In this document: one piece after another, positions 35,406 to 64,000 of the stretch
Layout: each line of letters begins with the position of its first letter
Numbering within the stretch: position 1 is the stretch's first letter
Program-made: the position numbers and the translations under genes
Origin: a bacterium
Lineage (GTDB): Bacteria > Bacillota > Clostridia > Lachnospirales > Lachnospiraceae
Direction: 5' to 3'
Assembly (NCBI GenBank): GCA_023663725.1
Contig: JAMPGX010000014.1
Span: forward strand, 1 to 64,000
DNA length: 64,000 bases
Notes under the pieces: model-generated
The model's database searches: none
The model's input: only the letters and a program-made list of their open reading frames with translations
What the model was told of the DNA's origin: nothing

Positions 35406-35495
35406 TACTAACTCTCCCCTATATGCCGCCAGGCAACCCGCCTGCGGCACTGCGCCGATCCGTATTGGGACGTTCAACATCCCAACCGACTCCCT

Positions 35496-36791: not shown

Positions 36792-36836
36792 CTCTTCTCT
36801 GTCCTCTCTTATCCTGCCGCTTTCCGCCGCAGGGTT

Positions 36837-38006: not shown

Positions 38007-38059
38007 AATAGCTTGATCTCCTTTTTGAAGACACATCCGACGTCAATTGCTGTGTTTAC

Positions 38060-41133: not shown

Positions 41134-41136
41134 TCC

Positions 41137-44346: not shown

Positions 44347-44404
44347 TTCTTTCCTCCTTGAAAAACGCACTTGCTTCCTTGCATGGTAAATTATACCATT
44401 TAAT

Positions 44405-46861: not shown

Positions 46862-46874
46862 TTTATTCCTCATC

Positions 46875-47909: not shown

Positions 47910-47949
47910 GTATCCGTTCTCCAATCCCTCATGATAACAGATCACGCAT

Positions 47950-48666: not shown

Positions 48667-48671
48667 ATATT

Positions 48672-49358
48672 CTAATTCCGACCAGCCAATTGTGCCGCCT
48701 CGCCGTATTTCCGAATTTCGGCTATTATTTCACTGTATGGCCTGTTTTTCCCAAAAAGAAGCGTAGTTCCCAGCACAAATCCGGATACTCCTTTGGGCTG
48801 AAACTGTATGATCTTATCCGCGCTGCATGCGCCATCCCAATAAACAGTAAAATCCATTTCCGCCTTCATAGATAGCAACTTGTCGATCTTTCCGCCAACA
48901 TAGGGCAGATACATCTGCGCAGCATTGCCTGGATTCACCGACATGACAAGCACCTTCTTGACAATCCGAAGCATCTCGTATACTGTCTCGATGCTGGTTC
49001 CCGGATTGATGGCAATCCCCGGTACCATCCCCGCATCAATAATCTTCTGCAAAGTTGTGGATGGATGGTATTCTGCCTCCGGATGAATATAAACTGTATC
49101 TCCTGGACGCAACTTCTTTAAAAACATATGAATGTTATTGTTGGGATGCTCAATCATCAGATGTACATCAAGAGGACTCTGGGTAGCGGTAGCTATATAG
49201 GCCATATCATTGATAGACATCGCAAAATTAGGAACATATCTACCATCCATAATGTCAATATGGAAAGAGTCTATACCAGCCTCATCCAACTCTCTTACTT
49301 CCCTCTCCAAGTTGCCATAATTTGCGCACATCATTGATGCGTTCAATTCAAAGTACAT
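48672..49358 (-). CDS. Ribulose-phosphate 3-epimerase family protein
   Basis: A 228-residue TIM barrel of the ribulose-phosphate epimerase type. Visible motifs are FHIDIMDGRYVPNFAMS (metal-binding His and Asp), DVHLMIEHP and the second catalytic Asp in YWDGACS. The last differs from the usual VDGG. AGGAGGAA precedes the ATG. Because it is embedded in a CDP-pentitol set and not in the pentose phosphate pathway, it may feed xylulose-5-phosphate, or another pentulose phosphate, to the dehydrogenase. Psicose/allulose-phosphate epimerase is another possibility. Confidence 0.88.
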   Translation of the reverse strand: MYFELNASMMCANYGNLEREVRELDEAGIDSFHIDIMDGRYVPNFAMSINDMAYIATATQSPLDVHLMIEHPNNNIHMFLKKLRPGDTVYIHPEAEYHPSTTLQKIIDAGMVPGIAINPGTSIETVYEMLRIVKKVLVMSVNPGNAAQMYLPYVGGKIDKLLSMKAEMDFTVYWDGACSADKIIQFQPKGVSGFVLGTTLLFGKNRPYSEIIAEIRKYGEAAQLAGRN

Positions 49359-49386: not shown

Positions 49387-50481
49387 CTAACGCAAAAAGT
49401 TTTTATTAGCGTACACTATTGTATATTTTTCTCTATGTCTCTCAAAAAAATAGGTAATCAACCTCTCAGATAAAAATCCTGGATATCGGTTCATATATGT
49501 ATCTTCCCGCTCCCCGCCGTGTGCTGCCACCGCATCCAAAATAGGATAAAGCCAGCTGCATAGCTCTCGCAGTACTTCTCTGCGGGCGATAATCATGTTG
49601 CAAGGAGAATACAAATACCCCTCAAAAAACCTTTTGGCATCATCATACTCGTCCGGAAGCTCGTTTCTGAAATATTCCATCATATATTCCCAGTCGGCAC
49701 TGTCATGCCTTTCCATATAATTATCCGCTATACTGGGGCCGACATACAACGGCACTGGCAGAATGACATCCACATGGTTAGCAATAATGCGCGGCACCCA
49801 GTCAACGGGCAACAGAAAATGCCTCCTGTAATGTGCCAATCCTACATAATCCTCCCTGGCATTTTTCCATACCCAATACAGGCCCGTAAGTTCACAGTAT
49901 TGCCTGTTTTTATGGGATATGTTTTCCCCCTCACAATCGGTGATGACCTCCGGCGATATTCTCTGACTGGTCAACGCCGCTCCAACCTGCAGCATCGTTT
50001 CATCCTCTGTCATATGGTATTCGTCTGTCAACGGCATATCCAGAATTGAGCATGCCACATAAATTCTTGCCGTCTTGTGTGGACAGCACACTTCCGTCTG
50101 CAAATCGTTGACAAGCCTAAAGGTTCTTCCCATACTGCGCCAATATTTGTGGATAAATTGATTGCGAAGCCGCATATCCAGCTCCACAGTCAGAGGTATG
50201 ATCTTCTTCATGCCTGCATCCCGTAGTTCCTTCACGACCTTGGGGTGATTGGCTCCACGCATACCTATATAAACGGGATAGTCCGTACACAGGCCGCTCC
50301 CAATCAGACGAACAGGAATGCCATCCACCGTATCCTTGTTTTCTGACATATTGTCAACCAGAAACGCTTCGGTCAGGACATCGGGATACAGATACTCCAG
50401 ATACTTCCGCAATGTTCTCCCTCTGGAATGCGCACCAGCTATATATATTCTCGTTGAAGTCCTCTCCCGCCCCTCTCTCAT
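49387..50481 (-). CDS. DUF4422-domain glycosyltransferase with N-terminal Rossmann-like domain
   Basis: A 364-residue protein. Residues 1-115 look like a Rossmann-type domain (TRIYIAGAHSRGRTLRKYL), while 135-364 are a DUF4422 domain with YCELTGLYWVWKN and VGLAHYRRHF, found in capsule glycosyltransferases. The start overlaps the fumarase-like alpha gene by 4 bp, so it is translated with that operon. It probably attaches a sugar that bears, or receives, the group made by the upstream genes. The donor is not known. Confidence 0.87.
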   Translation of the reverse strand: MREGRERTSTRIYIAGAHSRGRTLRKYLEYLYPDVLTEAFLVDNMSENKDTVDGIPVRLIGSGLCTDYPVYIGMRGANHPKVVKELRDAGMKKIIPLTVELDMRLRNQFIHKYWRSMGRTFRLVNDLQTEVCCPHKTARIYVACSILDMPLTDEYHMTEDETMLQVGAALTSQRISPEVITDCEGENISHKNRQYCELTGLYWVWKNAREDYVGLAHYRRHFLLPVDWVPRIIANHVDVILPVPLYVGPSIADNYMERHDSADWEYMMEYFRNELPDEYDDAKRFFEGYLYSPCNMIIARREVLRELCSWLYPILDAVAAHGGEREDTYMNRYPGFLSERLITYFFERHREKYTIVYANKNFLR

Positions 50482-51347
50482 GATACTCTATTCTCCAAAA
50501 TAACAGAGGCATGCCTTGGCTCAAAACAGCAACATGGCCTCATGCATACGATCCGTACGCCGCTCGCTCTCTGCGGACCAACCTTCATAAATGTTGCCAA
50601 CACCGATGTGCTCCCCCCCAGCCCGATGGGGCCAATTCCCGCTTGATTGACACGCTCCGTAATCTCACTTTCCAGCTGGCTCTGGTTCTCGTAGTCTCCC
50701 TCCACCAAGGCCTGCAACATCATTGCTGTGGCTTCATAATGAGACCTTCCAATTCCAACTGCAAGTGTACACGGCGTGCAGCCCAACAGCGTTGCCCCCT
50801 CCGTTGCCCACGAGACGATTTCATCCACTACATTGCCAATATCATGCCTGTGAAATACTCGGTATGTCTTTGCCCTGATTGCAGGTCCTCCGCCAAACAT
50901 AAGTATATGCAGTCTGATCAAGTCCTCCTCAATACTTCTAATCATGATCGGCGCCATCTCCAAAGCTCCCGGGTCTTCATACAACCCCTGAGATTGATCC
51001 AGCCTATCGCACGCCTCTCCCTTAACTGCCATGGGACGTCCGGGCAGTTTTCTCAGCCCTTGCGCAATACCTTCTTTGACTGCCTCCAATAATCCACCTG
51101 TAACCGGACAATTAGGGCCTATTTCCAGCAAAAGATGAGGAATACCTGTATCATCGCAGAGCGGGCTCCTGTTTTCTTCTGCAATCTCTGCATTTTTAAG
51201 TATTATCTCCAACGCCCACCTTGCCCGCTCGTTATCTTCCGCAGCAATCCGCCGCTGGTAAGCAGCTTTCTTATCCGCTAAGAATGTGGAACCAGCACAA
51301 ACCAAGGTGTCGCACACTTTTTCAACTATCTCCTTGTAATCTTGCAT
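50478..51347 (-). CDS. Class I fumarase/tartrate dehydratase-type alpha subunit
   Basis: A 289-residue protein of the Fumerase N-domain family (TtdA/FumA-like), which uses a [4Fe-4S] cluster to remove or add water at a dicarboxylic acid. Features are CDDTGIPHLLLEIG, MFGGGPAIRAK and GCTPCTLAVGIGRSHYEA, with conserved cysteines at the presumed cluster site. AGGAGC precedes the ATG. The matching beta subunit lies directly upstream (14 bp). Linkage to a CitE-like lyase and a glycan operon argues that the substrate is not plain fumarate. Tartrate, mesaconate or a phosphonate analogue are candidates. Confidence 0.9.
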   Translation of the reverse strand: MQDYKEIVEKVCDTLVCAGSTFLADKKAAYQRRIAAEDNERARWALEIILKNAEIAEENRSPLCDDTGIPHLLLEIGPNCPVTGGLLEAVKEGIAQGLRKLPGRPMAVKGEACDRLDQSQGLYEDPGALEMAPIMIRSIEEDLIRLHILMFGGGPAIRAKTYRVFHRHDIGNVVDEIVSWATEGATLLGCTPCTLAVGIGRSHYEATAMMLQALVEGDYENQSQLESEITERVNQAGIGPIGLGGSTSVLATFMKVGPQRASGVRIVCMRPCCCFEPRHASVILENRVS

Positions 51348-51361
51348 TCCGCTCCTCGTTT

Positions 51362-51865
51362 CTAATAGATGCTCTCGTCGTGCGCTGCGGCAACAATGGC
51401 AGGATATTCCCTGACTTCGATTTCATAAAAGGCCTCCATGCCCAATTCTGGAAAAGCCACAACACGACGGGATAGCGTGTTTTTCTCCAAAAGGGCAGTG
51501 ACAGGGGGCATAACCGCATAGACGGAATGATATTGATTCAACAGTTCAATGGTCTTCCTCCCGATTGCCCCCTTTCCCAGATGCATTTTTACACCTGCTT
51601 GGGAAAGCATCGGAAAGCTGCTTTCTATCTCGACTTTATTGCTAGATGTAGGTCCCACTCCCGCAGCGCTGACTGCCGTGTGAAAGATTACGCTTCCCTC
51701 CAACTCAATCCCATATTGTTCCAGCTTTCTATCCTCAATCAGCTTACAGATTCTGGGCAGGACAGCATCGCGACCACAATATATTTTCCCTGTTATCCGT
51801 ATCATCTCTCCAACATGCAACCCCTGCACTACCTCATTGGAAATCGGTGTCTGTATGTTTCTCAT
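51362..51865 (-). CDS. Class I fumarase/tartrate dehydratase-type beta subunit
   Basis: A 167-residue partner of the alpha subunit, with the Fumerase C-domain signature VGPTSSNKVE and the GKIYCGRDAVLPR opening. A GGAGAT site precedes the ATG, and only 2 bp separate it from the CitE-like stop. Together the two subunits would form a two-subunit dehydratase of the TtdAB kind. As the local operon makes an unknown product, the reaction is only described as hydration or dehydration of a hydroxy-acid. Confidence 0.9.
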   Translation of the reverse strand: MRNIQTPISNEVVQGLHVGEMIRITGKIYCGRDAVLPRICKLIEDRKLEQYGIELEGSVIFHTAVSAAGVGPTSSNKVEIESSFPMLSQAGVKMHLGKGAIGRKTIELLNQYHSVYAVMPPVTALLEKNTLSRRVVAFPELGMEAFYEIEVREYPAIVAAAHDESIY

Positions 51866-51867
51866 GT

Positions 51868-53034
51868 TTAGATCTCCATCCCGTCTTTTTTCACTTCCGC
51901 GAAAAGTTGAATGAAACTACTTTCATTCTCTATTACACCAAATGCACGCGCACGCATATATATCTTTTCCGCCCAGTTCGTGTGAGGTTTGACTTCGTTC
52001 ATCTTATTGCCGCCTTCCCCTTTAAACACGCCTCCCTCTTCGTTATGCAGAATATTGACCGCGTCCTGATATTCTTCTTTTGTCACTGCCTGCATTGCGT
52101 TAACGTATTTAATATGTGTGGGGTGTATCACCGTCCTACCGATAAACCCATTCGCCTTATCCAAAATCACCTCTCTCAGTAGTCCGTCCACTTCCATATT
52201 GACAATGGGAATTCTCTTCAACAGGCAATCTTCAATATCATGACTGGGCAGCGCTTCAAACATCATCTGCTTACTTGCACGAAAATACTCCCACACCGGA
52301 CCGGATACCACATAGTCATTGTTGCGCCCAAAAACATTAATAATATCTGACAGAATCTCACGTACTGTCAGAATGTCATAGATTGAATAGTCCACTCCCC
52401 TTCTCACGCCAAAGCAGGAGGAAAAGTCCGTTGCTCCAACACGCACCTGCAACACGATATCCTTATATTGCTCCAGAATCTTCCGGATTCCAATCAATTC
52501 GTCCATTCGCGTCTCTTTTAGAGCAACCTCCACGTCCTCTATTATAGGCATTGCGTATATAATTTCATCAAACTTTTTATTCAGGTTTTCTAAATACTCC
52601 AAATATGCGCTGCCATTACGAGTGTTAAACTTAGGGAAATTAATTCCTGTCAAAACCCGCACCTGGTGTTTTGTCAACTGTTCCGCAAAACGCTCAAACT
52701 GCTGTTGATTTCTGACGCGACAGAAAATCAGCGGAATATCCTCATATGACAATACTCCGCCATCCAACGCGTCTGCAAGCCTGTCCAAAGTGTTAAGCAC
52801 ATTTTGCTCCGCCTGTTCCACCTGATCTTCCGGACATGCGTCCTCAAAGCAAAATACCATGGAAGTAAGCTCCGGTATCTGACGACCCAATATTTTATCT
52901 GCGAAATCCTTAGTACCCGGCATGTAGATTGTGGCGCCCAGACAGTATTGAAGAAAACTCTTATCGGTATATTTGTTGAATTCCTCTGGCTCAACCACAA
53001 AGCTGAAGCCTGGACTATATTTGTGATGTCTCAT
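51868..53034 (-). CDS. CitE/HpcH-HpaI-like C-C bond lyase
   Basis: A 388-residue TIM-barrel protein of the citrate lyase beta/HpcH aldolase superfamily, longer than CitE (about 290). The segments LQVRVGATDFSSCFGVRRG, MPIIEDVEVAL and RTVIHPTHIKYVN carry the family's Arg, Glu and Asp residues that bind magnesium and the keto acid. The layout matches the PF15617-type stand-alone lyases. Such enzymes join or cleave a pyruvate- or acetate-like unit and an aldehyde. GAGGTGA lies just before the ATG. It stands 6 bp after the unassigned TIM-barrel gene. The true substrate is unknown. Confidence 0.87.
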   Translation of the reverse strand: MRHHKYSPGFSFVVEPEEFNKYTDKSFLQYCLGATIYMPGTKDFADKILGRQIPELTSMVFCFEDACPEDQVEQAEQNVLNTLDRLADALDGGVLSYEDIPLIFCRVRNQQQFERFAEQLTKHQVRVLTGINFPKFNTRNGSAYLEYLENLNKKFDEIIYAMPIIEDVEVALKETRMDELIGIRKILEQYKDIVLQVRVGATDFSSCFGVRRGVDYSIYDILTVREILSDIINVFGRNNDYVVSGPVWEYFRASKQMMFEALPSHDIEDCLLKRIPIVNMEVDGLLREVILDKANGFIGRTVIHPTHIKYVNAMQAVTKEEYQDAVNILHNEEGGVFKGEGGNKMNEVKPHTNWAEKIYMRARAFGVIENESSFIQLFAEVKKDGMEI

Positions 53035-53040
53035 CTTTTG

Positions 53041-53934
53041 TCACCTCACAGCCCCTTTAGGAGACTGTTTTGCCTCCGGATAATATTCATCAATGACCCT
53101 TTTTACCAAAGAAACCTGTTTTGCCCTCTTTTTTGCATCGTCAGCAGTAGAGTCCCAGCTGTGAGTAGCCGCAACAGAACCGCCTGTCTTCAAATAAATC
53201 GGCGCCGCTACCCGTATCATCTCAGGCACTTCATAATGACGTATGAACCCCCCCGTTGACTTGGGATTTTCCGTATGAATGTCTATCGGAATATCTATTG
53301 CCTGACGCATAGCCGCCAACATCTGCAATTGAATATCTCTCACGGGATTGACGGAATTAGCTCCCAGCATTTCAAGAACCTTTGCTGAACACGGATTTCC
53401 ATGTCCCATATGGGCCGAGATTTTAAAGTGACAGTCCTCTGGGATCTCACCTGCATTTCTCATCTCATTAAGCAGCCATAGGCAGCCCTCATCATATACG
53501 AGAAAGGATCTGCAGCCAAAGCCCGCCGCTCTCTTCACATCCTCCACCGCCCGTACAATCTGTTCCTGTCCCCGCAGACGATATCCCATTCTAACCCCTT
53601 CCGGCGTATTCACCGAAGCGCTGGTATCCGTAGTAGCCCTAGGGCCGATAGCCAGTATCAAATCCGTCTCCGCTTGCCTGGCCAGCCTGACCATCTCCAT
53701 GATCTCATTGTCAGTGAGCATCATGATGCCTTTCGTCTGAGTTACACGGTGAAGCACTATCCCATATTGATCCATCGCCTCCAAAAGCGCTTCCATAACC
53801 TTGGGACCCTGGATTCCAGGAACCTCAAATCGGTATTGCCCTCCGTCACTAAAACGCTTTTCTGAAGTCGGCAGATCATACGCATCTCCCGATGGCAAGC
53901 CAATTGTCTGTAAAAATTCTCGTGTTTTCCGCAC
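53041..53934 (-). CDS. TIM-barrel-like protein of unassigned family
   Basis: A 297-residue soluble protein with strand-helix repeats ending in LILAIGPRATTDTS, FLVYDEGCLWLLNEM, HFKISAHMGHGNPCSAKVL and IPIDIHTENPKSTGG. These look like successive strand ends of a TIM barrel, with acidic and histidine residues that could bind metal. It starts with GTG at 53934 behind GAGAGGG. Distant likeness to the U32 peptidase group is suspected, but the U32 cysteine signature is missing. In the operon it lies between the AepY-like and CitE-like genes and is likely a lyase or isomerase on the same substrate. Function unknown. Confidence 0.78.
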   Translation of the reverse strand: MRKTREFLQTIGLPSGDAYDLPTSEKRFSDGGQYRFEVPGIQGPKVMEALLEAMDQYGIVLHRVTQTKGIMMLTDNEIMEMVRLARQAETDLILAIGPRATTDTSASVNTPEGVRMGYRLRGQEQIVRAVEDVKRAAGFGCRSFLVYDEGCLWLLNEMRNAGEIPEDCHFKISAHMGHGNPCSAKVLEMLGANSVNPVRDIQLQMLAAMRQAIDIPIDIHTENPKSTGGFIRHYEVPEMIRVAAPIYLKTGGSVAATHSWDSTADDAKKRAKQVSLVKRVIDEYYPEAKQSPKGAVR

Positions 53935-53955
53935 TTTCCATCCCTCTCCTTCAAT

Positions 53956-55080
53956 TTATTTCCGCAATTCATTCTGAAACTCTTCAATCAGGTTCCCATA
54001 TGAAACCTTCAAAGGAGGAAGTTTGCCCTTAAGTCCCTTGTGAATCCGCATGTCTATGAAGAATGGACCTTTGCTTGCCTCAAACTTCTTCAGCGCCTTC
54101 ACCAGAGCTTCCTCCGTCTCAACGACCGCCCCCACGGTCCGATATCCCGCCCCTTCCGCTATCTTTGTAAGATCCACAATATGACCCGCTGACGGCTGGC
54201 CTCCCACAGATTCATGCGCTCCATTGTTCAATACGACATGAAGCATATTGGAGCTCTTTATTTTACCCGCCATCGTAAACGCTCCCATATGCATCAACGC
54301 GGCCGCATCTCCATCAAGACATACCACAAGCCGCTCACTGTCTCCCAGCGCCAGCCCCAACGCAACAGAGGACGCATGTCCCATAGAACCCACATTTAAA
54401 AAGTCATGCTCATGCCCCTCGCCTCTCTTCTCCCTCAAAAAGAATAATTCCCGCGTAGCTCTACCTGTTGTAGCAACATATACCGCATCGTCCGGCAGTG
54501 TTTCAAGAATGATTTCTATCGCATCCTCTCTGCTCAGCGGATATTTTTTGTCAGTAATATTTTCTTTTTCAACTGCTGCAAACATACCTTTTGTCCCGAT
54601 AATCGCAACGGGCTTTCCATTCTCCCGAGCCTCGGATACTGCACAGGCCATCTGCTTCTCAATCCTGTCTGCCGCTGCTATCTCATATGGAATCCCCCAC
54701 AGTTCAAGAAGCTTAAGCGTCACCTCGCCCTGCTTTATATGTTGTGGATGGTCATCCGTCCCCGGCTCGCCTCTCCATCCAATCAGAAGGAGCATAGGAA
54801 CTCCATATACATGAGAATCAGCCAGAGAGAGCAGTGGATTCATCGCATTTCCCATACCAGAATTCTGCATATACACCAGAGGGATTTTTCCAGTAGCAAA
54901 GTAATACCCTGATGCAATGGCAATGGCATTCCCTTCGTTGGCAGCAATTATATGCTTATCCTGTGGTATATGCTCCAACAGGCTATTGCAAAATCCATTT
55001 AAATAGGAGTCCGGTACACCGGTAAAAAAATCCACTCCCTGCTGCCGCAAAATACTTAATAATTTATTCTGATCCATCAT
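53956..55080 (-). CDS. AepY-like ThDP-dependent decarboxylase (paralogue)
   Basis: A 374-residue ThDP enzyme closely related to phosphonopyruvate decarboxylase at 33565-34686. Both halves are present: FFTGVPDS and ANEGNAIAIASGY with catalytic Glu49, then VCLDGDAAALMHMG and LNNGAHESVGG. The usual GDG of the diphosphate motif reads GDA at 257-259. The start at 55080 has a GGGAGA site; a longer frame to 55119 overlaps the upstream gene. No PEP mutase gene is in this operon, so it may use phosphonopyruvate made at 35 kb, or another 3-substituted pyruvate such as sulfopyruvate. Family is firm; substrate is open. Confidence 0.9.
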   Translation of the reverse strand: MMDQNKLLSILRQQGVDFFTGVPDSYLNGFCNSLLEHIPQDKHIIAANEGNAIAIASGYYFATGKIPLVYMQNSGMGNAMNPLLSLADSHVYGVPMLLLIGWRGEPGTDDHPQHIKQGEVTLKLLELWGIPYEIAAADRIEKQMACAVSEARENGKPVAIIGTKGMFAAVEKENITDKKYPLSREDAIEIILETLPDDAVYVATTGRATRELFFLREKRGEGHEHDFLNVGSMGHASSVALGLALGDSERLVVCLDGDAAALMHMGAFTMAGKIKSSNMLHVVLNNGAHESVGGQPSAGHIVDLTKIAEGAGYRTVGAVVETEEALVKALKKFEASKGPFFIDMRIHKGLKGKLPPLKVSYGNLIEEFQNELRK

Positions 55081-55108
55081 ATTCTTTTTCTCCCAACCAA
55101 ACGAAAGC

Positions 55109-56503
55109 CTACTGTTCATCTGGGACGCACTTCGTCAGCTCCCTCACTGAGATCAATTGCCCAAAGAATCCCCTGAAATGGAAATCCTTTGTAATCTGAT
55201 TCATAAAATTATAGTTCAATATCAGCATTGCATCTGAGTTATCCGGCACATAGTCACACATTCTCTGCACACTCTGTCCACATCTGCTCTTGCTATGAAC
55301 ATCCCTTGCCAGAAAGCCTTTGATTACGACATCCGTCTTCGCCAATATATGGTATAGTACGGTGGCAAGCTCCATATCCCCATATATGTACAGTTTTGTC
55401 ACATTCATTTGATGAAGCTTCTCCTGCAACAGTTGTGATGCCTCTCCACAGTTCAAAAGGCGCTCCGTTATCTCCATATGCTCCTTATAAATATATGCCG
55501 GATGAGGCCTGTTTTCATGTAGATTGCGCGCTCCCCAAAAATAGATTCTGGGATCCTGCAGAGCCGGATTATTTAACATCTCTAGATATTCCCTGTGGTA
55601 AGGATGAGATGGATTCAAAACATCCTTAAACCAGTAATCATCCTGCGACAGCATGAACCATCTGTAGAGCGGCTTCGCAATAACCTCATCGGCGTTAAAT
55701 TCCTCAATACAACGTTTTGCAAATTCTGGAAATTCCCAGAAATTTCTTTCCTGTAATACAATGGAAATACGAACCCAATTGATCTCTCCCTTATATCTCA
55801 ATTCCCGTATAAATCCCAAATTGTGCATCACCTGCTCGTAACTGTCATGTCCTCCGTTCAGGTACTTGAACGTAGTTCTCACAAAGCTGTTGGGCGTAAT
55901 AGTAACATACACAGGATATTGAGCCAGATGCTTTATACGCTCCCAGTGCGCCTCGTCAAAGAAGGCGCCGTTTGTCTCAAACCCTATTTGACATTTTTCA
56001 TTCTCAGGATGTAATTGCTCCAACATATTCATCAGATAGGGGCTTGCAAAGCAATCTCCATTTCCATCTGTGAGAATCTTTACCGTTTCCTTTCTGTTTA
56101 AATACGGCAGTATTTTGTCCAGAATGACATTCAGTCTTCTTTTGTATTCCTCATCCGGAGTAAAGACTTGATTTCTGCAGGATGGACAACTATGATTACA
56201 TATGAAATCACATGCCACGCTGTACTTAGTTGGAAGCTCCTCGGGCATGACCCGCATAGCCTCCTTCTCCTCAATTTCAGGCAGGGAATTGTTTTCCAAA
56301 AAAGGACAGGAAGATTTTCTGCAGAATTCAAAATTTCCATGCCTAATCGCTTCCCTTATTTTATTCGCATTTTCACTATTCCATACTGTTTCCAGACTTT
56401 GCTCCACTAGATTGCCCAGGTTGGCGTCCGTCCAAGCACATAGCCGGCACCCCCCGTTCGGGTCCAGATGTAGGGAGTTAAACGGCCTATCACAAAACTT
56501 CAT
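55109..56503 (-). CDS. Radical SAM protein with N-terminal SPASM-like cysteines (copy A)
   Basis: A 464-residue enzyme. Cysteines 4, 19, 22, 61 and 66 form a SPASM-like auxiliary cluster region placed before the core, the reverse of the usual order. The radical SAM cluster motif is CNHSCPSC (Cys102, Cys106, Cys109). The core spans about 95-330. From about residue 365 a Rossmann-like tail starts at KLYIYGDMELA, as in sugar-modifying proteins. It begins behind AGGAGGACTG. A paralogue lies at 60274-61656. Radical SAM/SPASM enzymes can epimerise, dehydrogenate or cross-link sugars and peptides; here a glycan substituent is more likely. Substrate unknown. Confidence 0.88.
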   Translation of the reverse strand: MKFCDRPFNSLHLDPNGGCRLCAWTDANLGNLVEQSLETVWNSENANKIREAIRHGNFEFCRKSSCPFLENNSLPEIEEKEAMRVMPEELPTKYSVACDFICNHSCPSCRNQVFTPDEEYKRRLNVILDKILPYLNRKETVKILTDGNGDCFASPYLMNMLEQLHPENEKCQIGFETNGAFFDEAHWERIKHLAQYPVYVTITPNSFVRTTFKYLNGGHDSYEQVMHNLGFIRELRYKGEINWVRISIVLQERNFWEFPEFAKRCIEEFNADEVIAKPLYRWFMLSQDDYWFKDVLNPSHPYHREYLEMLNNPALQDPRIYFWGARNLHENRPHPAYIYKEHMEITERLLNCGEASQLLQEKLHQMNVTKLYIYGDMELATVLYHILAKTDVVIKGFLARDVHSKSRCGQSVQRMCDYVPDNSDAMLILNYNFMNQITKDFHFRGFFGQLISVRELTKCVPDEQ

Positions 56504-56518
56504 CCTCAGTCCTCCTCG

Positions 56519-57517
56519 CTACAAATTGACGATTCTGTCCTCTTTCAAAATTTTCCATTGGTATAATTTTATAAGCACAGTCTTTATTACATATCCTATG
56601 TATGTTAAAGTCTCTCCACTATACCTCACAATCTTCAGGATTATACAAAAGTTCTCCCTGGTGGGATACCGCATAAATATTGCGACGCTTCCTGCCAGCC
56701 GATCTTTTTTCACACCACATAAATCCAGAGAAATGCCCTTGTTGACTTTCGCCCAATGCTCCAGCCTGCGCATCATCAGGAAATCCTCCGCCTTTAGATT
56801 TTTATGTCCCTGTACCGACATAAAATTCTTCTCCCTATCAGAAACCCTGTATCTATAACACCCAACCACATCCGGCATACAATATATATTCCCCTCTACG
56901 ACCTCCATCAGCAAATGCGTTCTATCTGATACGCGCTTGGATGCTTTATATACAATGGAATAGTCTTTTTCGCTTTGCCGAAACAGATTCCTCGAGGTTT
57001 TTGTCATGCTATGACCCGGAACCTCCCACCGCTCATAATCCGCTAACGTATAAACTTCTTTATCAAACTTCCAGAATACCGTTCTCGAAGGAATCGTATT
57101 CTCCTCAATTGGATCGTCGTTCCCATCCACAACCCTGCAGCGATGACATACTCCCACATATTCAGGATGCGTTTCCAGAAAATCCACATCTTTCTGAATG
57201 CGCAAGTCATCACACCAATAGTCATCCCCCTCACAGCCTGCAACATATTTTCCCCTCGCATGAATATCCAATGAATACGCGTTTTTTGTACACCCTACAT
57301 TTCTTTTATGGTGAATCACCCGAATGATATCAGGATACTTTTGGGCATATCCGTCTACGATTTCTCGGGTAGAATCTGTTGAACAATCTTCCCCAATCAA
57401 TATCTCATATCTGTATTCCGTCTTCTGAGACAAGATGCTCTCAATGGCCTGGACTATATATTTTTCATGATTATACGCCAATATTTTGACAGTGACCATA
57501 ATCTCACTTGTGTTCAT
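56519..57517 (-). CDS. Family 2 glycosyltransferase
   Basis: A 332-residue GT-A transferase with VTVKILAYNHEKYIVQAI, GEDCSTDSTREI and the EGDDYW donor-site motif. The C-terminal part has hydrophobic stretches that may lie on the membrane. The start overlaps the MmgE/PrpD stop by 4 bp and follows GGTGGAG, so translation is coupled. It resembles the N-terminal domain of the transferase at 44464-45756. It likely adds one sugar of the glycan that carries the operon's special group. The sugar is unknown. Confidence 0.9.
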   Translation of the reverse strand: MNTSEIMVTVKILAYNHEKYIVQAIESILSQKTEYRYEILIGEDCSTDSTREIVDGYAQKYPDIIRVIHHKRNVGCTKNAYSLDIHARGKYVAGCEGDDYWCDDLRIQKDVDFLETHPEYVGVCHRCRVVDGNDDPIEENTIPSRTVFWKFDKEVYTLADYERWEVPGHSMTKTSRNLFRQSEKDYSIVYKASKRVSDRTHLLMEVVEGNIYCMPDVVGCYRYRVSDREKNFMSVQGHKNLKAEDFLMMRRLEHWAKVNKGISLDLCGVKKDRLAGSVAIFMRYPTRENFCIILKIVRYSGETLTYIGYVIKTVLIKLYQWKILKEDRIVNL

Positions 57518-58953
57518 ACAGCTCCACCTTCCCGTTTATACTGGTTGAGCAGTTGAGAAATAGACTCAAAAGCATCCTCTTGTCTTACATTTCTACAGTT
57601 TTCTATCAATCGGTCACATTCCATGGGAAGTAATACGTTATCAGCACACATTCTAACCTTCTCTGCCATTTCCTCCCAGGTCAACAAATACTTCCCCTCT
57701 CCCCTTGGTATTTGTACCCAATCCTCCTCTGTTTTTCCATTTTCCATGTAAACTCTGATATTTGCGCCCCGAATTCCCTGTTGACGATTTTCCAGAGAGG
57801 CGTCCTCTATAATTCTTATTTTATCTATCAATCCCCACACCTCTTGCCCTGCCGTTTCCACAACGAGATCTGACAGAGTAAATCCTCCAGTTATCAATGC
57901 TACCGCCGTGGCATAGCATATGGAGAATTTCGCCTCCTCAGCCGATCTCGGACGACATATACCGCCTGCTGACCGTATTGCGCTCGGGTATGTATAAATA
58001 TCTATTCTTTGTATCTGACTCGGAACTTCTATCGTATCCCATATTCTTTTTCTCAACGCTAATACGGCGTCAATGCAGCTATGCGTATGCCTGCATGTTG
58101 GATAGAGCTTCAGATAACTCTCACTGATTGTGAATTTCGTCCCCAGGCCCTGAAAGATAATATTTTCGTCTATCTCCTCCGCAAAGGCGTTAAACCATCC
58201 CTTGCAGCTCTCCAGCGGAAATTCCGGCCCTATCAGTCCTTTCCCCGCCAGCACTGCGGAAAACACCCCTATTCGCGCAGCATTTGCGGCATTGATAGGC
58301 TTACATGCCTGCCCACTTTCGTCTATCACCAACAGACCGCTCGCTTGGAGTGCGGCCAGCGAAATGGCATTATAGATTCCCTCTTCGCTGAGCCCAAGCA
58401 GCTTTGCGCAGGCGGCGCCAGCGGCAATTCCACCCGCCACCCCTGTGGCATGAAAGCCTTTTTGGTACAATCCCGGCTGAGCGGCACCGGCAATCCGATT
58501 GAATACCTCATATCCCACATTGGCGGCCAATAGTATTTCTCTCCATGTCACACTCAGTTTCTCTCCCAATGCAAATACCGAGGAAAAGACAGACGTACCA
58601 ATATGTCCCGCCGATATTCGATTCCCATCATCCATATCTGCACCATGCGCATACATGGCATTTAGGTATGCGGCACTTTCTGCCGGAAACTTAACCTGAT
58701 CAAATAATACCGATGCCTGCCCTTTACCTCCCATTTCCTTAAAGTACTCCAAATTAATCCTGTTAAATACGCGATTCACCTTATAGCCTGCGAAGCATGC
58801 CGCATAATAATCTGCAATAAACAGCTTTGTCCTCTCGACAACTTCACTGTCCAGCATATCAGCATTTAACTCAGATATAAACTTGCTCAAACAATGTGTA
58901 ATATGATCCATATTCATTCCCAAGCTTTTACCTAGATTTGTGCCATACCGCAT
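57514..58953 (-). CDS. MmgE/PrpD-family dehydratase/decarboxylase-like protein
   Basis: A 479-residue MmgE/PrpD protein. This family includes 2-methylcitrate dehydratase and cis-aconitate decarboxylase. Visible features are the helical N-terminal domain with AHGADMDDGNR and GHIGTSVFSSVFAL, a glycine- and alanine-rich GFHATGVAGGIAAGAACAKLLGLS, and the C-terminal domain from about 270 with LYPTCRHTHSCIDAV. The start codon is uncertain: 58953 follows the previous stop by 3 bp without a clear RBS, while internal ATGs at 58917 and 58911 are alternatives. No citrate synthase gene is near, so a role on an unusual tricarboxylic or hydroxy-acid is suggested. Confidence 0.9.
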   Translation of the reverse strand: MRYGTNLGKSLGMNMDHITHCLSKFISELNADMLDSEVVERTKLFIADYYAACFAGYKVNRVFNRINLEYFKEMGGKGQASVLFDQVKFPAESAAYLNAMYAHGADMDDGNRISAGHIGTSVFSSVFALGEKLSVTWREILLAANVGYEVFNRIAGAAQPGLYQKGFHATGVAGGIAAGAACAKLLGLSEEGIYNAISLAALQASGLLVIDESGQACKPINAANAARIGVFSAVLAGKGLIGPEFPLESCKGWFNAFAEEIDENIIFQGLGTKFTISESYLKLYPTCRHTHSCIDAVLALRKRIWDTIEVPSQIQRIDIYTYPSAIRSAGGICRPRSAEEAKFSICYATAVALITGGFTLSDLVVETAGQEVWGLIDKIRIIEDASLENRQQGIRGANIRVYMENGKTEEDWVQIPRGEGKYLLTWEEMAEKVRMCADNVLLPMECDRLIENCRNVRQEDAFESISQLLNQYKREGGAV

Positions 58954-58956
58954 TTA

Positions 58957-60249
58957 CTATATCAAATCCGTGTTAAGCATATCACATATCAGGTTCTCTC
59001 CCGCTTCGTTTTCTATTATCAGCTTATCCTGTATGAATCGCAGAGCTTCCTTCTCCTTATCTCTGGTTTTGCACAGGATACATATTTCCGCATATCGCCT
59101 TCTGAGATCACTACATGCAGGAACATTATCACCTTCCACATATCGGGGGGAAAACGTTACCACAGCTTCATGAGATGTTATTTCTTCCACTCCATATATC
59201 TTATGAATTCTCCCCGGTTTCAGAGTCGGGCACAGCTGCATAATTCTCATGCCATACAAATGCGAAATATCCGCTTCCTGAATGATGTTCTCAAACTTCC
59301 CCGTGATAGCAAACTGGACCAGCATCTGAATCAAATCTATTTTGGTTGCGAGCTGAAAGAGTCTCTCATATTCTCCTCCCGAAAACCGATATCCTGGGTC
59401 ATATAGACGGATCGTATCTCCATCCACAAAGCCCTGGAAGAAAACAGGGCCATTTGTAATGCCTATCCCTTTTAACATGCGGATAACTCTGTCATGAACA
59501 TTGTTCCAATACATCGCCGCATGCTTTGAGGGACTCGCGGAAGCTATAGCCACTCTGTCCAGCCCCCCGTCCTCCCCGCCGACATACCGATCTCCAGTTC
59601 GCACAAGAATAGCCTTTCCCTCCATAAACAGATAGGACGCGGTAAAGTCCTCTTTCTTTTCCATATACTTTTCTATTACAACATCACCGGAAGCTGACTC
59701 TTTATATGCATATTCTACTGCTGGACCAAGCTCCGCCGCCGCGCGGCACACGGTCTGTCCTCTTGACCCTCTGCTGTCTGCCGGCTTTACCAATACCGGC
59801 AATATTTCCTCAATACAGCCGCTTGTCTGGTACACTTCCAGTTCTTGGAGCGAATATGTATCAATGATGTCCACTCCGTACTTCCTACAGCATTCTTTGA
59901 AGGCCACTTTGTCTGTCAATATGCGGAACTGCTCTTTAGTCCCAAAACAGGGAACACCAAGCCTTTCGCATATAGCCTGATACGGCACCTGGCAGGGATC
60001 CAGAGAAATGCTGATCACTCCATGAATATGCTCAGCTCTGCAGAAACTCACTATTCCATCCACATTCTTCACGTCATACATTAGCGCCACGTCTGCCATC
60101 TCTTTTGCCGGAGAACTCTCCAGATAGTCTGTCACATACGCTGTCAACCCTAATCTATGCGCCGCTTCTACCACCTTGCAGTGCTGAAAGCTGCCACCCA
60201 GGATCAAAATGCGTTTCCCTGCACACGTTGAGGCAAATGAATTATTCAC
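58957..60249 (-). CDS. ATP-grasp ligase
   Basis: A 430-residue ATP-grasp protein of the carbamoyl-phosphate-synthase/PurK-like type. An N-terminal Rossmann domain (RILILGGSFQHCK) precedes the ATP-binding lobes with VLVKPADSRGSRGQ, VVIEKYME and a C-terminal half containing VFFQGFVDGDTIRLYDPGYR. Such ligases join a carboxylate to an amine via an acyl phosphate. It starts with GTG at 60249 behind GGGAGGAG; a TTG five codons earlier is inside that RBS. It is a strong candidate to couple the acid made by the operon to an amino sugar or amino acid. Confidence 0.92.
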   Translation of the reverse strand: MNNSFASTCAGKRILILGGSFQHCKVVEAAHRLGLTAYVTDYLESSPAKEMADVALMYDVKNVDGIVSFCRAEHIHGVISISLDPCQVPYQAICERLGVPCFGTKEQFRILTDKVAFKECCRKYGVDIIDTYSLQELEVYQTSGCIEEILPVLVKPADSRGSRGQTVCRAAAELGPAVEYAYKESASGDVVIEKYMEKKEDFTASYLFMEGKAILVRTGDRYVGGEDGGLDRVAIASASPSKHAAMYWNNVHDRVIRMLKGIGITNGPVFFQGFVDGDTIRLYDPGYRFSGGEYERLFQLATKIDLIQMLVQFAITGKFENIIQEADISHLYGMRIMQLCPTLKPGRIHKIYGVEEITSHEAVVTFSPRYVEGDNVPACSDLRRRYAEICILCKTRDKEKEALRFIQDKLIIENEAGENLICDMLNTDLI

Positions 60250-60273
60250 GTCAGCTCCTCCCAACTTTCCTGA

Positions 60274-61656
60274 TTACAGCAACTCTCTGACCGTGATGAT
60301 TTTGCCCTCATAACCCTCATCGCGAAGATCCCTTACGATCTCGTTATAGGAGCCCAGAACCGTCACAAGAATAGTATCCACCTCAGACAGATCTTTTCCC
60401 CATATACCCCGAATCGGGAGATTTCTGCATGTCTTGCAGCTTCCAGCATTACCCTTTCGCTTATCAATGAAGAACTCTATGTTGATTCCCTCTGCCCTGG
60501 ATATCACATCATAACACATTTCCCCATATATCCATGCGCTGTAGATTGCAAGCTTATGGACCTCCTGCTCACGGAATTTGTTCGTCAAATATTCCCCTGT
60601 ATTCTCCTTCTGCAGCAGGTTATAGAATAGCTTCACAAAGACATCACTGTATACCGCCGGATGTCTCCTCGCATCTCTGTCATGATTTTCCTCTGTCCAG
60701 TCCCAAACCTTCGGATGCTTCAGAATCGGATCTTGCATGACCTTCAGATAGTTCTCGTGATGCGGGTGAAGCGGATTCAGAACATTCTTATACCAATACC
60801 CCTCCGCATCCAGACAGAACCATCTGTTTAACGGCTTGATTTGAATCGTATCAGGATCATACTCTTCCAGACAGGTACGAATAAACGAAGGAATTTCGCA
60901 ATAGTTGCTCTCCTGTACTACCATATTGATCCTGAAGCTCGCTATCTTTCCCTCTTTTCTCAATCCACTGATGAATTTTAAATTCCTTTTGCATGCTTCC
61001 AGGCTGTCGTGTCCTCCTGATAAATATCTATAAGTATAGCGTTCAAAGCTATTGGGCGTAATCGTAAAATTAATAGGATATTGATGCAACTGCGAAATTG
61101 CCTCCCAGTGCTTTTCGTCCAACATAACCCCATTGGTCTCAAAAGAAATATGGAATTCAGGGTCTTCAGGCTTTAGCTCCTGCAAGAACTCCATGATAAA
61201 CGGGGATGCAAAACAATCTCCCATGCCGCAAGTAATAATAAATTTAGCCTTATTTGCAAAAGGCAACACGGCCTCCTTGAGCTTTTTCATCCGCTCTATA
61301 TAAGCTTCGTCCGGATGAAAAAAGCTACTACGGCAGGAAGGGCATGTATGATTACAAAACTTGTCATAAGATATATTCATTTCTATCGGTGTCGGCGTGG
61401 GCTGATAATTTTTCCCAATTTCATCATCAATCTCTTCCAGCCTGCCACTGGCACAGTAAGGACATTCTTCCTTTCTGCAATACCGAAAGCTTCCATCACG
61501 AATAGATTCTCTTGCTTTTTCCGCCTGTTCGTTCATCCACAAATCTTCCAAAGAACTTTCCAGCGGATTACCTAATAATAAATCCATCCAAGAACATGTT
61601 TTAACATAGGTCTCCTTTACATACATCTGCTCAAACGGCCTTTTACAAAATAGCAT
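60274..61656 (-). CDS. Radical SAM protein with N-terminal SPASM-like cysteines (copy B)
   Basis: A 460-residue paralogue of the 55109-56503 product, with the same order of parts. N-terminal cysteines are 4, 21, 60, 65 and 68, and the CNHTCPSC motif holds Cys101, Cys105 and Cys108. FITCGMGDCFASPF and HISFETNGVMLDEKHW follow in the core. The C-terminal tail from about 370 (LAIYSAWIYGEM) is Rossmann-like. AAGGAGGA lies just before the ATG. It lies between the AsnB and ATP-grasp genes. Two such enzymes in one operon suggest two related chemical steps on one product. Reaction unknown. Confidence 0.88.
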   Translation of the reverse strand: MLFCKRPFEQMYVKETYVKTCSWMDLLLGNPLESSLEDLWMNEQAEKARESIRDGSFRYCRKEECPYCASGRLEEIDDEIGKNYQPTPTPIEMNISYDKFCNHTCPSCRSSFFHPDEAYIERMKKLKEAVLPFANKAKFIITCGMGDCFASPFIMEFLQELKPEDPEFHISFETNGVMLDEKHWEAISQLHQYPINFTITPNSFERYTYRYLSGGHDSLEACKRNLKFISGLRKEGKIASFRINMVVQESNYCEIPSFIRTCLEEYDPDTIQIKPLNRWFCLDAEGYWYKNVLNPLHPHHENYLKVMQDPILKHPKVWDWTEENHDRDARRHPAVYSDVFVKLFYNLLQKENTGEYLTNKFREQEVHKLAIYSAWIYGEMCYDVISRAEGINIEFFIDKRKGNAGSCKTCRNLPIRGIWGKDLSEVDTILVTVLGSYNEIVRDLRDEGYEGKIITVRELL

Positions 61657-63579
61657 TTAATTTATCCTCCTTTTTTCTAAAAACATTTGGCACCATGTCT
61701 CCAAGCCAATTGCCCTCCACATACTTGTAAACTCCATGTTACTGATTGTTTCTGCATGTTCAAATAATTGTTTCACATACTCTGCACTAATCAAACCCCT
61801 ATTGTGCATATTGGGATAGATCATATCGTGGAAATATTCCCTGAAGCTTTTTGATGTCACCATCGTTCTTTTGTCCAATGCCATAATCTGCTTTTTTCTA
61901 TATGCAAAATCACGGCCAAAATATTTCGCCACTATTTCTTTAAAGATGTATTTCCCCTGAACCCATTCCAACGGATTTTGAGATAAGTTAACCGGCGAAC
62001 AATCCGCAAATCTGATCAACATATCTTCGGGCAGACACATTACATGATCGACCACTTCATTATCCAAAAGGGGGACTCTATTTTCTATGGAACTTGCCAT
62101 AGTCATCTTATCCTGCCTCAGTAACGCTTCAGGCAAACGCTCAAAAATCTCAAACTTTAAGTGTTTCGTAAAATTTGAGCCTGTGAAGCGGTTAAATATG
62201 TCCACTTGTTCCTGAATTAATTTCTCTGTATCATTCCAACCTATAGAAGTGAGGTTGGTAATCGTCTGGTCAGTCATCACCGCATACTGTGCGTAGCTGT
62301 CATAGCTTCTTAGACTACCGCCGCTGTTTTTCTGCAAAAAAGGCTGAAAGACACCTGTTGCAAATCGGCTATAGCCTCCTGCAATCTCATCGGAGCCCTC
62401 ACCGCTCAGCAGCACTGTCACATATTCTCTGGCCCGCTCTGCCAATTTCATAAAGCATACGAAAAAGGGTTGATAAACCGGTGCATCATTGTGCCAGATC
62501 ATGCGCTCATAATGATTTACAAAGTAATCTTCCTCTACGGTAAATTTATGCAAGTCCAGACATAGACGATTACCGACATGATCTATATATTTTTCCTCGC
62601 CTATCACCCCTTTCTCATCTATAATGGAGACGGCATCATTTAAATTATCACCTCTACGTTGATTGGCAAAATAGCTGACCAGCGTAGAGTCAATCCCACC
62701 AGATAACTGACAACCAACTTTAACATCACTGACCATTTGCCTGGAAACCGCTCTGGCGATAATGTCCTCTGTTGCTTCCATCGCGTCCTCTATAGAATGG
62801 TACTTTTGTTCATTTCTCACATATTGATCCAGATTATAATAGTTCCATTTCTTAATCCCCCCATTATAGGTAACCCGCAGCGCCGTTCCCGGTTCCACTA
62901 AAAATGCATTTTGCAACAGAACTTTTTCGCTTGGTCTGGAAAAGATGAGCCTTGCATTAAACGCGTCCAAATCAAGCCTGCGTTCAAAATCCCTTAACTG
63001 AATGATGCTTTTAAGCTCGGATGCAAATGCCACTCTGTTATTGTATAATGCATAGTATAGCGGCTTGATTCCATATCGGTCTCGCGCCATCATCACACAA
63101 TTGTATCTCAAGTCCGTTATGACAATCGCAAACATCCCGTTTAGCTTGGGTAGCATTTGCTCAAAGCCATATTCAAGATACAAATTCATGATTACTTCCG
63201 TATCTGTAGAACTTCTGAACTGATATCCCATATCTATCAGCTGCGCTCTTAGTTCTGCGTCATTGTATATCTCACCGTTGAACGCAAGGACCACCTTCCC
63301 GTCAAGTGCTGTCATTGGCTGATGTCCCTCCAGCGATAAGTCCTTTATGCTCAGCCTGTTGAATCCGATGATTCCATCTATAGGATTCCTCAGATCGATT
63401 CCGGCAGTTTCCACTGCCGAATATGACTTACCGGTTTCAAAGCATATCGCACACACCCCTGTATCATCCGGTCCTCTATGCTTCTGAACATGAACTGCAC
63501 ATTGAAAATCACTTAATATCTCTTGATCAAATCTCTTTGCTGAATGATTGAGATTGATTAATCCGGCTATCCCGCACAT
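61657..63579 (-). CDS. asnB: AsnB-type glutamine-dependent amidotransferase
   Basis: A 640-residue asparagine-synthetase-like enzyme. The glutaminase domain starts with Cys2 in MCGIAGLINL and includes FNRLSIKDLS and FNGEIYND. The synthetase domain has the pyrophosphatase motif CQLSGGIDSTLVSYF and VLLSGEGSDEIAGGY. The ATG at 63579 is required to make the cysteine N-terminal and has GGGAGGAAG before it; the six codons upstream are not used. In glycan loci AsnB relatives amidate a sugar acid or another carboxylate rather than aspartate. Its place beside an ATP-grasp and an aminotransferase supports that here. Confidence 0.92.
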   Translation of the reverse strand: MCGIAGLINLNHSAKRFDQEILSDFQCAVHVQKHRGPDDTGVCAICFETGKSYSAVETAGIDLRNPIDGIIGFNRLSIKDLSLEGHQPMTALDGKVVLAFNGEIYNDAELRAQLIDMGYQFRSSTDTEVIMNLYLEYGFEQMLPKLNGMFAIVITDLRYNCVMMARDRYGIKPLYYALYNNRVAFASELKSIIQLRDFERRLDLDAFNARLIFSRPSEKVLLQNAFLVEPGTALRVTYNGGIKKWNYYNLDQYVRNEQKYHSIEDAMEATEDIIARAVSRQMVSDVKVGCQLSGGIDSTLVSYFANQRRGDNLNDAVSIIDEKGVIGEEKYIDHVGNRLCLDLHKFTVEEDYFVNHYERMIWHNDAPVYQPFFVCFMKLAERAREYVTVLLSGEGSDEIAGGYSRFATGVFQPFLQKNSGGSLRSYDSYAQYAVMTDQTITNLTSIGWNDTEKLIQEQVDIFNRFTGSNFTKHLKFEIFERLPEALLRQDKMTMASSIENRVPLLDNEVVDHVMCLPEDMLIRFADCSPVNLSQNPLEWVQGKYIFKEIVAKYFGRDFAYRKKQIMALDKRTMVTSKSFREYFHDMIYPNMHNRGLISAEYVKQLFEHAETISNMEFTSMWRAIGLETWCQMFLEKRRIN

Positions 63580-63593
63580 ATATCTTCCTCCCA

Positions 63594-64000
63594 TCAATTC
63601 GTTGTTGCCTGCTCCAACAAATTGATAATATATTCGATTTGTTCAAACTCTATATCATCCCAAAGCGGAAGTGTAAGAATCTCCTTGCCCAACTGTCTGG
63701 CTACCGGCAATTCAGCTAATTTATATTTATTTCTAAAGCAAGCCTGATCCGCTGTCAATGGATAGAAATATTTTCGTGCAAAAATATCATGCTCTACATA
63801 CATATCGTATACTTCATCCCTGCTCATTGGAAAATCAGAAGTAATTCTCACTGGAAGATACGCGTAGTTTTTTGCCTCGTTCTCCTCTTGGGCGACCAGT
63901 TCGATGCCTCTGATCTTCAAAAGCTTACGCACATAAAATTCATATCTTTCTTTTCTATGCTTCAGAACGTCATCTATATGCTTTAAATTACACAATCCCA
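63594..64000 (-). CDS. DegT/DnrJ/EryC1/StrS-type aminotransferase, C-terminal part
   Basis: Only the last 133-135 residues are inside the window; the rest lies beyond its end. The visible stretch GLCNLKHIDDVLKHRKERYEFY and the ending FYPLTADQA ... LPVARQLGKEILTLPLWDD match the C-terminal domain of PLP-dependent sugar aminotransferases (the usual reading is HPLH or YPLH then SE..LSLP). These convert a keto-sugar to an amino-sugar nucleotide. It is the gene before asnB in the operon, with 14 bp between. The PLP lysine is outside the window. Confidence 0.85.
   Translation of the reverse strand, partial: GLCNLKHIDDVLKHRKERYEFYVRKLLKIRGIELVAQEENEAKNYAYLPVRITSDFPMSRDEVYDMYVEHDIFARKYFYPLTADQACFRNKYKLAELPVARQLGKEILTLPLWDDIEFEQIEYIINLLEQATTN

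Follow-up and report, generated by a model that had tools for sequence, protein, structure and literature searches.

A 64,000-nucleotide stretch of a Lachnospiraceae genome (assembly GCA_023663725.1, contig JAMPGX010000014.1, positions 1 to 64,000 of the forward strand), hereafter the window, carries on its minus strand a long operon for which an earlier note, made from the sequence alone, had proposed a new pathway that makes a small acid, joins it to an amino sugar and places it on a surface or flagellar glycan. The region from a LicD gene (contig 64808-66340) to a GT2 glycosyltransferase gene (window position 44464) holds 19 genes, spaced -11 to +92 bp apart, and is one transcription-like unit. 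At least 11 tightly packed same-strand genes had been claimed between 50478 and 64000, and the operon is longer than that, extending upstream to LicD and downstream to 44464. All of the gene types named were recovered on the minus strand in Pfam and NCBIfam searches; of the label “CitE-like”, the C-C lyase type was borne out and the citrate-lyase identity was not, the family being PF15617 (Ter-type). A gene absent from the title of the earlier note, at 53041-53934, codes for a protein of 297 aa, here called X297, which proved to be the most conserved member of the set and its best marker. The genes are as follows.

53041..53934, minus strand: X297, module marker, putative TIM-barrel pyruvate-type aldolase; no Pfam or NCBIfam match
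51868..53034, minus strand: CitE-like C-C bond lyase, tail-specific (PF15617, 391.6 bits)
51362..51865, minus strand: FumB, fumarase/tartrate-dehydratase-like beta subunit (PF05683)
50478..51347, minus strand: FumA, fumarase/tartrate-dehydratase-like alpha subunit (Fumerase, PF05681)
53956..55119, minus strand: AepY2, ThDP 2-oxo acid decarboxylase, family name phosphonopyruvate decarboxylase (TIGR03297)
57514..58953, minus strand: MmgE/PrpD-family enzyme, tail-specific (PF03972 and PF19305)
58957..60264, minus strand: ATP-grasp ligase with an L-amino-acid-ligase-like C terminus, putatively amide-forming (CPSase_L_D2)
63594..64000, minus strand: DegT-type sugar aminotransferase, C-terminal part, running on to contig position 64715 (PF01041 on both parts)
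61657..63597, minus strand: AsnB-type amidotransferase, local addition (PF00733, PF13537)
60274..61656, minus strand: radical SAM protein 1, local addition (PF04055)
55109..56503, minus strand: radical SAM protein 2 with N-terminal SPASM, local addition (PF13186 and PF04055)
56519..57517, minus strand: GT2 glycosyltransferase (PF00535)
49387..50481, minus strand: DUF4422 protein (PF14393), which we take to be glycosyltransferase-like
45791..49358, minus strand: putative pentitol-type set of four proteins, namely a ribulose-phosphate epimerase (PF00834), an IspD/TarI-like cytidylyltransferase (PF01128), a zinc alcohol dehydrogenase (PF08240) and, at 46875-47945, a protein with no family match
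44464..45756, minus strand: GT2 glycosyltransferase, last gene of the operon ahead of flagellin (PF00535)

The module across genomes

X297, CitE and FumA were searched separately in 299 genomes of the window's family, the window genome included. X297 has matches in eight of them, at 75-86% identity in the seven other than the window's; full-length CitE is found in the same eight at no less than 56% identity (56-77% outside the window), with partial matches only, at no more than 41%, in 14 further genomes; and FumA at 57% or more again occurs in these eight (57-68%), with a single extra match, at 48%, in genome G046. The core grouping of the three proteins is not due to chance. Across 84,980 species genomes (GTDB), one pattern-based profile scan yielded 341 X297 relatives, which is a lower bound. 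We read 87 loci, made up of the best 80 of these 341 and the seven other family genomes, each over at most about 36 kb; X297 copies in module loci share about 74-89% identity with the window's protein. Since the loci were chosen through X297, the member counts are conditional on it, and the 299-genome search serves as the unconditional test. Gene calls are simple choices of open reading frames, by which a few genes may be lost (e.g., X297 in L099), and the pairs L012/L033 and L014/L060, taken as duplicates, are kept in the 87-locus counts and dropped from the trees and glycan-gene counts.

X297 was found in 86 of the 87 loci, CitE in 82, FumA in 79, FumB in 77 and PrpD in 74, and the tail members AepY, aldo-keto reductase (AKR), D-2-hydroxyacid dehydrogenase and Ldh_2 in 59, 54, 20 and 6, respectively. 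Adjacency is high for FumB-FumA (74 loci), CitE-FumB (63), X297-CitE (61), AepY-X297 (58) and AKR-AepY (54). The most frequent gene order is PrpD-AKR-AepY-X297-CitE-FumB-FumA and, judged by gene content, these seven genes are the fullest form of a conserved module. The records, mostly of metagenome-assembled genomes, name Clostridia, Bacteroidales, Fibrobacter, Spirochaetales and Victivallales, among others, in their titles and span Bacillota, Bacteroidota, Fibrobacterota, Spirochaetota and Lentisphaerota. The core of the gene set, then, does stay together elsewhere, in the eight family genomes as in the 87 loci, a point on which the earlier note had suggested a check; as an observation the gene set stands, on firmer ground than that note had given it. 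The radical SAM and AsnB proteins, which it had counted as pathway members, turned out to be local additions: relatives of the former occur in five of the 91 locus records (two being duplicates of one locus) and of the latter in three (L043, L101 and L102), and both were rejected as core members for their presence at few loci only. DUF4422 relatives occur in one of the 91 records. No description of this gene set was found among the matches listed in a literature search by title and start of abstract, with most subscription journals outside its reach; the set matches no named pathway, in keeping with the earlier statement that no common glycan pathway is present.

The marker itself is devoid of family matches: X297 gave none in Pfam or NCBIfam (including none to PF01136 at 0.001), the best E values in PDB searches were 1.1 (single sequence) and 0.14 (profile), and a search of viral contigs and phages returned none. 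Four residues, K170, D217, E234 and K248 (numbering of the aligned stretch), are invariant in X297 including four distant relatives. Among relatives whose surroundings were read, the one from Thermomicrobium (46% identity) lies near an IclR regulator, sugar transporter genes and a gluconate/galactonate-dehydratase-like protein; that from Streptomyces (37%) sits in a setting that, read by eye, resembles a similar sugar-acid operon; that from an Enterobacter plasmid (33%) is near a 2-hydroxyacid dehydrogenase and an aminotransferase; and the context of the Nonomuraea relative (35%) is not clear. The first three settings would fit an enzyme making or cleaving a 2-oxo acid. Of four relatives in plasmid records, two carry the annotation U32 family peptidase, one of these with a weak PF01136 match; a weak match to that family, of 25.3 bits (cut-off 22.4), is given by a relative at 33%. 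On the Enterobacter chuandaensis plasmid, the operon at L104 10898-23135 holds the X297 relative, the 2-hydroxyacid dehydrogenase, the aminotransferase, two iron-containing redox enzymes and a nucleotidyltransferase, and looks like a natural-product cluster.

The two tails and their linked genes

By gene content, the module comes with either of two nearly exclusive tails: 58 loci have AepY only, 24 a reductase only, one both (L047) and four neither (L030, L077, L089 and L099). The AepY tail is usually accompanied by AKR; in the alternative tail a 2-hydroxyacid dehydrogenase (PF02826) or Ldh_2 (PF02615) is found with an ATP-grasp ligase, these new tail families having been named by Pfam from one example each. 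In the tail analyses L047 was labelled AepY, the four loci with neither tail were excluded from trees and glycan-gene counts, and rows shorter than 80% of the window protein's length were excluded from trees. The 2-hydroxyacid dehydrogenase of L047 adjoins a PrpD of its own, in addition to PrpD-AKR-AepY, with a single shared X297-CitE-FumAB. According to record titles, both tails are found in Bacillota and in Bacteroidota, while the records from Fibrobacterota (two) and Lentisphaerota (one) have the reductase type and the one from Spirochaetota has the AepY type.

The protein tree of CitE contains a single tail change (78 rows; mean of 100 shuffles 20.2, minimum 17), and that of PrpD three (73 rows; mean 19.4, minimum 15), or two once the PrpD next to the 2-hydroxyacid dehydrogenase of L047 is removed. 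Tail changes number 13 in the X297 tree (82 rows; mean 21.1, minimum 17), 11 in the FumA tree (76 rows; mean 19.1, minimum 15), 10 in the FumB tree (74 rows; mean 18.6, minimum 16), each again with 100 shuffles, and nine in a concatenated tree of FumA and FumB (72 rows). A likelihood tree of FumA has 12 changes, at least five of them forced by well-supported branches, with none of 500 shuffles as low, and one single reductase-type FumA clade was rejected (p-AU 2e-180). In these trees CitE and PrpD are closely tied to the tail, and FumA and FumB much more loosely. We conclude from the topologies that FumAB has been shared between tails several times, and X297 perhaps likewise. The close tracking of the tail by CitE and PrpD suggests that they act on tail-specific molecules.

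The decarboxylase of the window's tail, AepY2, passes the phosphonopyruvate decarboxylase model TIGR03297 with 422.7 bits (cut-off 312.5) and is 45% identical to AepY1 from the phosphoenolpyruvate (PEP) mutase cassette of the window. That cassette (33565-38036), which lies outside the range of the earlier note, is an ordinary phosphonate cassette separate from the operon, and consists of AepY1, a nucleotidyltransferase, a PEP mutase fused to a cytidylyltransferase-like domain and a class V aminotransferase. PEP mutase was searched in 32 module genomes, many of them draft assemblies of untold completeness, and exceeded its cut-off in three, each of which has the AepY tail, as do 22 of the 32. 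The window genome is among the three, its enzyme belonging to the AepY1 cassette, and PEP mutase is likewise found in the genomes of L055 and L100. The remaining 19 AepY-type genomes gave no match over the cut-off, two of them having a weak one below it, and matches below the cut-off were also seen in six of 14 control genomes. AepY over its cut-off is present in 34 of the 299 family genomes, and the three of these without any PEP mutase match (G060, G238 and G260) are all module genomes. Given that most of the AepY-type genomes tested are without an over-cut-off PEP mutase, the “phosphonopyruvate decarboxylase” of the module probably acts on a different 2-oxo acid. Plain synthesis of 2-aminoethylphosphonate (AEP) was rejected, since PEP mutase is absent from most of the module genomes tested.

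The 56 module AepYs were set against 22 comparison proteins, each taken as the longest open stretch of its DNA piece: AepY1, one from L055, and 20 from family genomes that match PEP mutase, in one case below the cut-off. In both groups 78 columns are conserved in the same way, and 17 are conserved in different ways. Arg354 (AepY1 numbering, near the C terminus) is present in all 22 comparison proteins and replaced by Pro in 96% of the 56; our guess is that it may bind the phosphonate. The module resembles PEP-mutase/AepXYZ glycan tailoring, as encoded at 33565-38036, in its ThDP decarboxylase of the same NCBIfam family and its surface glycan setting, but differs in that most module genomes tested lack an over-cut-off PEP mutase and in the conserved AepY positions. 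To our knowledge, X297, CitE, FumAB and PrpD have no place in the PEP-mutase phosphonate pathway.

Comparison of the remaining enzymes with known systems gives partial likenesses. Module CitEs are about 43-44% identical (medians) to an Alkaliphilus protein with Ter-operon neighbours, including annotated TerD and phosphoribosyltransferase, and the ATP-grasp of L035 scores 36.5 bits with ATPgrasp_Ter, above the cut-off of 29.1. Pfam scans found neither TerD nor phosphoribosyltransferase among the window genes around CitE, and the Ter metabolite pathway was rejected, CitE being related and its Ter partners not found beside it in the window. FumA passes the subfamily model TIGR00722 (112.5 of 100.65 bits) and stays under the fumarase/tartrate dehydratase equivalog cut-offs (116.9 of 276 and 65.8 of 365 bits), and FumB stays under all NCBIfam cut-offs shown, including 79 of 238 and 63.3 of 264 bits. 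The closest FumAB found outside the module, at 47-48%, are those of G046 (L166 4752-11744), in a catabolic-looking operon with an RraA protein, DUF6282, a DUF1932 oxidoreductase, a TAXI-TRAP transporter and LysR; this RraA protein scores with 4-carboxy-4-hydroxy-2-oxoadipate (CHA) aldolase (146.4 of 179 bits). A FumAB-like pair and a CHA-aldolase-like RraA in one operon recall the CHA and 4-hydroxy-4-methyl-2-oxoglutarate (HMG) aldolase pathways, with which the module would share the logic of a pyruvate aldol reaction plus hydration or dehydration; the difference is that no RraA was recognised in the window operon, where X297 may stand in its place.

Among PDB entries the window PrpD comes closest to IRG1/cis-aconitate decarboxylase and IDS-epimerase, and it scores far under the PrpD models TIGR02330 and NF006943 (42.6 of 458 and 48.4 of 575 bits). 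The module has a PrpD superfamily member in common with the 2-methylcitrate cycle and itaconate formation (PrpD, IRG1), but no PrpB or PrpC was recognised in the window operon. The window ATP-grasp exceeds the gathering score of CPSase_L_D2, with PylC-like_N, LAL_C2 and Dala_Dala_lig_C under theirs, and both it and one from the reductase type resemble L-amino-acid ligases. DegT together with an amide-forming type of ligase at one locus is reminiscent of the N-acyl amino-sugar pathways of O-antigens and flagellin; those pathways use an acyltransferase, whereas the module locus has an ATP-grasp and a seven-gene acid supply instead.

The glycan setting

Module neighbours include DegT, a sugar transferase (PF02397) and a flippase (PF13440), identified by Pfam on examples, as well as RmlA- and RmlB-like proteins, named from sequence. 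When these five types, GT2, NeuB/CMP-synthetase-like proteins and a second ATP-grasp cluster were counted as glycan-type clusters, at least one was present in 29 of 38 long AepY-type loci and in all 22 long reductase-type loci. ATP-grasp and DegT accompany 24 and 21 of the 24 reductase-type loci, and 22 and 18 of the 57 AepY-type loci, respectively. As far as gene content tells, capsule- or exopolysaccharide-type loci are the rule outside the window genome.

In the window genome, which has 11 flagellin-type matches in total, flagellin genes flank the operon on both sides (contig 42874-44370 and 70092-70913), making flagellin a likely acceptor there, and since the operon genes scanned include no recognised flippase or polymerase, a cytoplasmic flagellin glycan is plausible in this genome. 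Such a position, which the earlier note had thought worth seeking elsewhere, is the exception: the window's flagellin finds a match at L083 only, of the 87 loci, and a flagellum-specific role was rejected as a general rule for this reason. Three LicD-family genes lie about the start of the operon (contig 64808-70047), and a DUF3880 glycosyltransferase gene shares a divergent run with two of them. Elsewhere in the window (39562-42787), a BCCT transporter, a LicC-like nucleotidyltransferase and a choline-kinase-like protein resemble a choline-phosphate set, and a similar trio is found near the module in G081 (L018).

A proposed pathway and its rivals

That the module supplies a surface glycan with a small hydroxylated acid, formed by way of a 2-oxo acid, seems to us an even call. 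Of the pathway first proposed, this keeps the outline, mostly at surface-polysaccharide loci and with an acid substituent as the best reading, and abandons the emphasis on flagellin, radical SAM and AsnB. The reactions, their order, the fold of X297 and the amide linkage we infer from enzyme families and gene arrangement. X297, as a pyruvate-type aldolase, and FumA/FumB, as an Fe-S hydro-lyase, would form the part common to all versions, in which pyruvate is joined to a second 2-oxo acid or an aldehyde and water is removed or moved, giving a 2-oxo acid with a further acid group on the C3 side. In the AepY tail, as in the window, AepY would decarboxylate this 2-oxo acid and AKR would normally reduce the product to an alcohol; in the other tail, the 2-hydroxyacid dehydrogenase or Ldh_2 would reduce it to a 2-hydroxy acid, CitE and PrpD working inside the tail-specific part. 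An ATP-grasp of the L-amino-acid-ligase type could then link the acid to the amino sugar made by DegT, and glycosyltransferases would place the product. An ATP-grasp ligase needs a carboxylate, and the keto acid should therefore bear a second acid group, which would suit an AepY-like decarboxylase. A specific product, such as 2,4-dihydroxy-2-methylbutanoate via 4-hydroxy-4-methyl-2-oxoglutarate, is left as speculation. In its full form, which we hold a little more tentatively than an even call, the proposal is that of an undescribed pathway with a new aldolase-type family (X297) and a divergent Fe-S hydro-lyase, by which bacteria from the gut and rumen, in five phyla or more, make a so far unknown class of hydroxy-acid glycan substituents. 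To one shared front end would be fitted either a decarboxylating or a reducing tail, swapped as a unit together with the CitE and PrpD belonging to it, and two types of product would result.

Several observations weigh against this proposal. The window genome has no module-type AKR, its best match being partial at 33% (37% and also partial in G060), and the operon is without the gene that normally precedes AepY in the module order; three AepY-type modules (L041, L042 and L046) are without CitE, and none was found elsewhere in those genomes. The reaction chain is accordingly not fixed. The predicted structure of X297, a single-sequence model, is poor (pLDDT 38.5), so that both its fold and its role as an aldolase are read from distant context. 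A lean towards the tail is also seen in FumA, FumB and X297, with counts under the lowest of 100 shuffles, and the X297 tree, poorly resolved because the sequences are too alike, is weak evidence. None of the counted glycan-type clusters occurs in nine of the 38 long AepY-type loci, and with ATP-grasp in just 22 of 57 the case for an amide linkage is weak in the AepY type. Finally, a DctM-type transporter gene and a small protein lie directly ahead of PrpD in 11 of the 87 loci (L013, L055, L065, L066, L069, L070, L076, L080, L085, L087 and L094), and a LysR gene is found in 10; the transporter may import a precursor, and both genes would also suit a catabolic role.

Such a role is the least improbable of the rivals, though we consider it unlikely: the module would be a catabolic operon for an imported acid of the tricarballylate, itaconate or branched 2-oxo acid type, found in glycan loci by chance. 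The DctM and LysR genes, the TRAP/LysR operon around the closest outside FumAB and the nearness of PrpD to IRG1/cis-aconitate decarboxylase speak for it; 76 of the 87 loci have no DctM gene, however, ATP-grasp, DegT, flippase and sugar transferase genes are interleaved with the core, and acid-forming reductases are kept through the tail swap. Less probable still, with only a slim chance, is a phosphonate pathway, in which the PEP mutase 17 kb away would provide AepY2 with genuine phosphonopyruvate to decarboxylate and the rest of the module would tailor the phosphonate. The TIGR03297 score, the cassette in the window and PEP mutase in the L055 and L100 genomes agree with this; yet over-cut-off PEP mutase was found in only three of 22 AepY-type genomes tested, the window already has an AepY1 close to AepX, 17 AepY positions are conserved differently between the groups, and reductase-type loci have no AepY at the locus.

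We think it very improbable that the module makes phosphonopyruvate or sulfopyruvate without PEP mutase, as another way in nature of forming a C-P or C-S bond. Sulfopyruvate came into consideration because the Ldh_2 of L095, from the reductase tail, scores best with L-sulfolactate dehydrogenase, below the cut-off (272.4 of 500 bits), and AepY2 is still 45% identical to the cassette AepY; against this, we know of no chemistry by which enzymes of these families would form either bond, the core has no gene recognised as handling sulfite or phosphonate, and the arginine common to all comparison AepYs has been lost. As a joint explanation we give scarcely any credence to unrelated genes having collected, with no pathway in common, in a recombination-prone surface-glycan island. 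Glycan islands are mosaic, and radical SAM, AsnB and glycosyltransferase genes vary between loci, but X297, CitE and FumA occur in the same eight of 299 genomes and the set is kept across records from five phyla; this reading is refuted for the core and holds for the local additions.

On the proposed reading, a widespread pathway has been without a name and its marker protein without a family model. The decarboxylase is probably misnamed in databases, where its label would predict phosphonates in many genomes without an over-cut-off PEP mutase, and the tail swap predicts two product classes from one front end. Capsule and flagellar substituents help to shape the encounters of gut bacteria with antibodies, phages and lectins.

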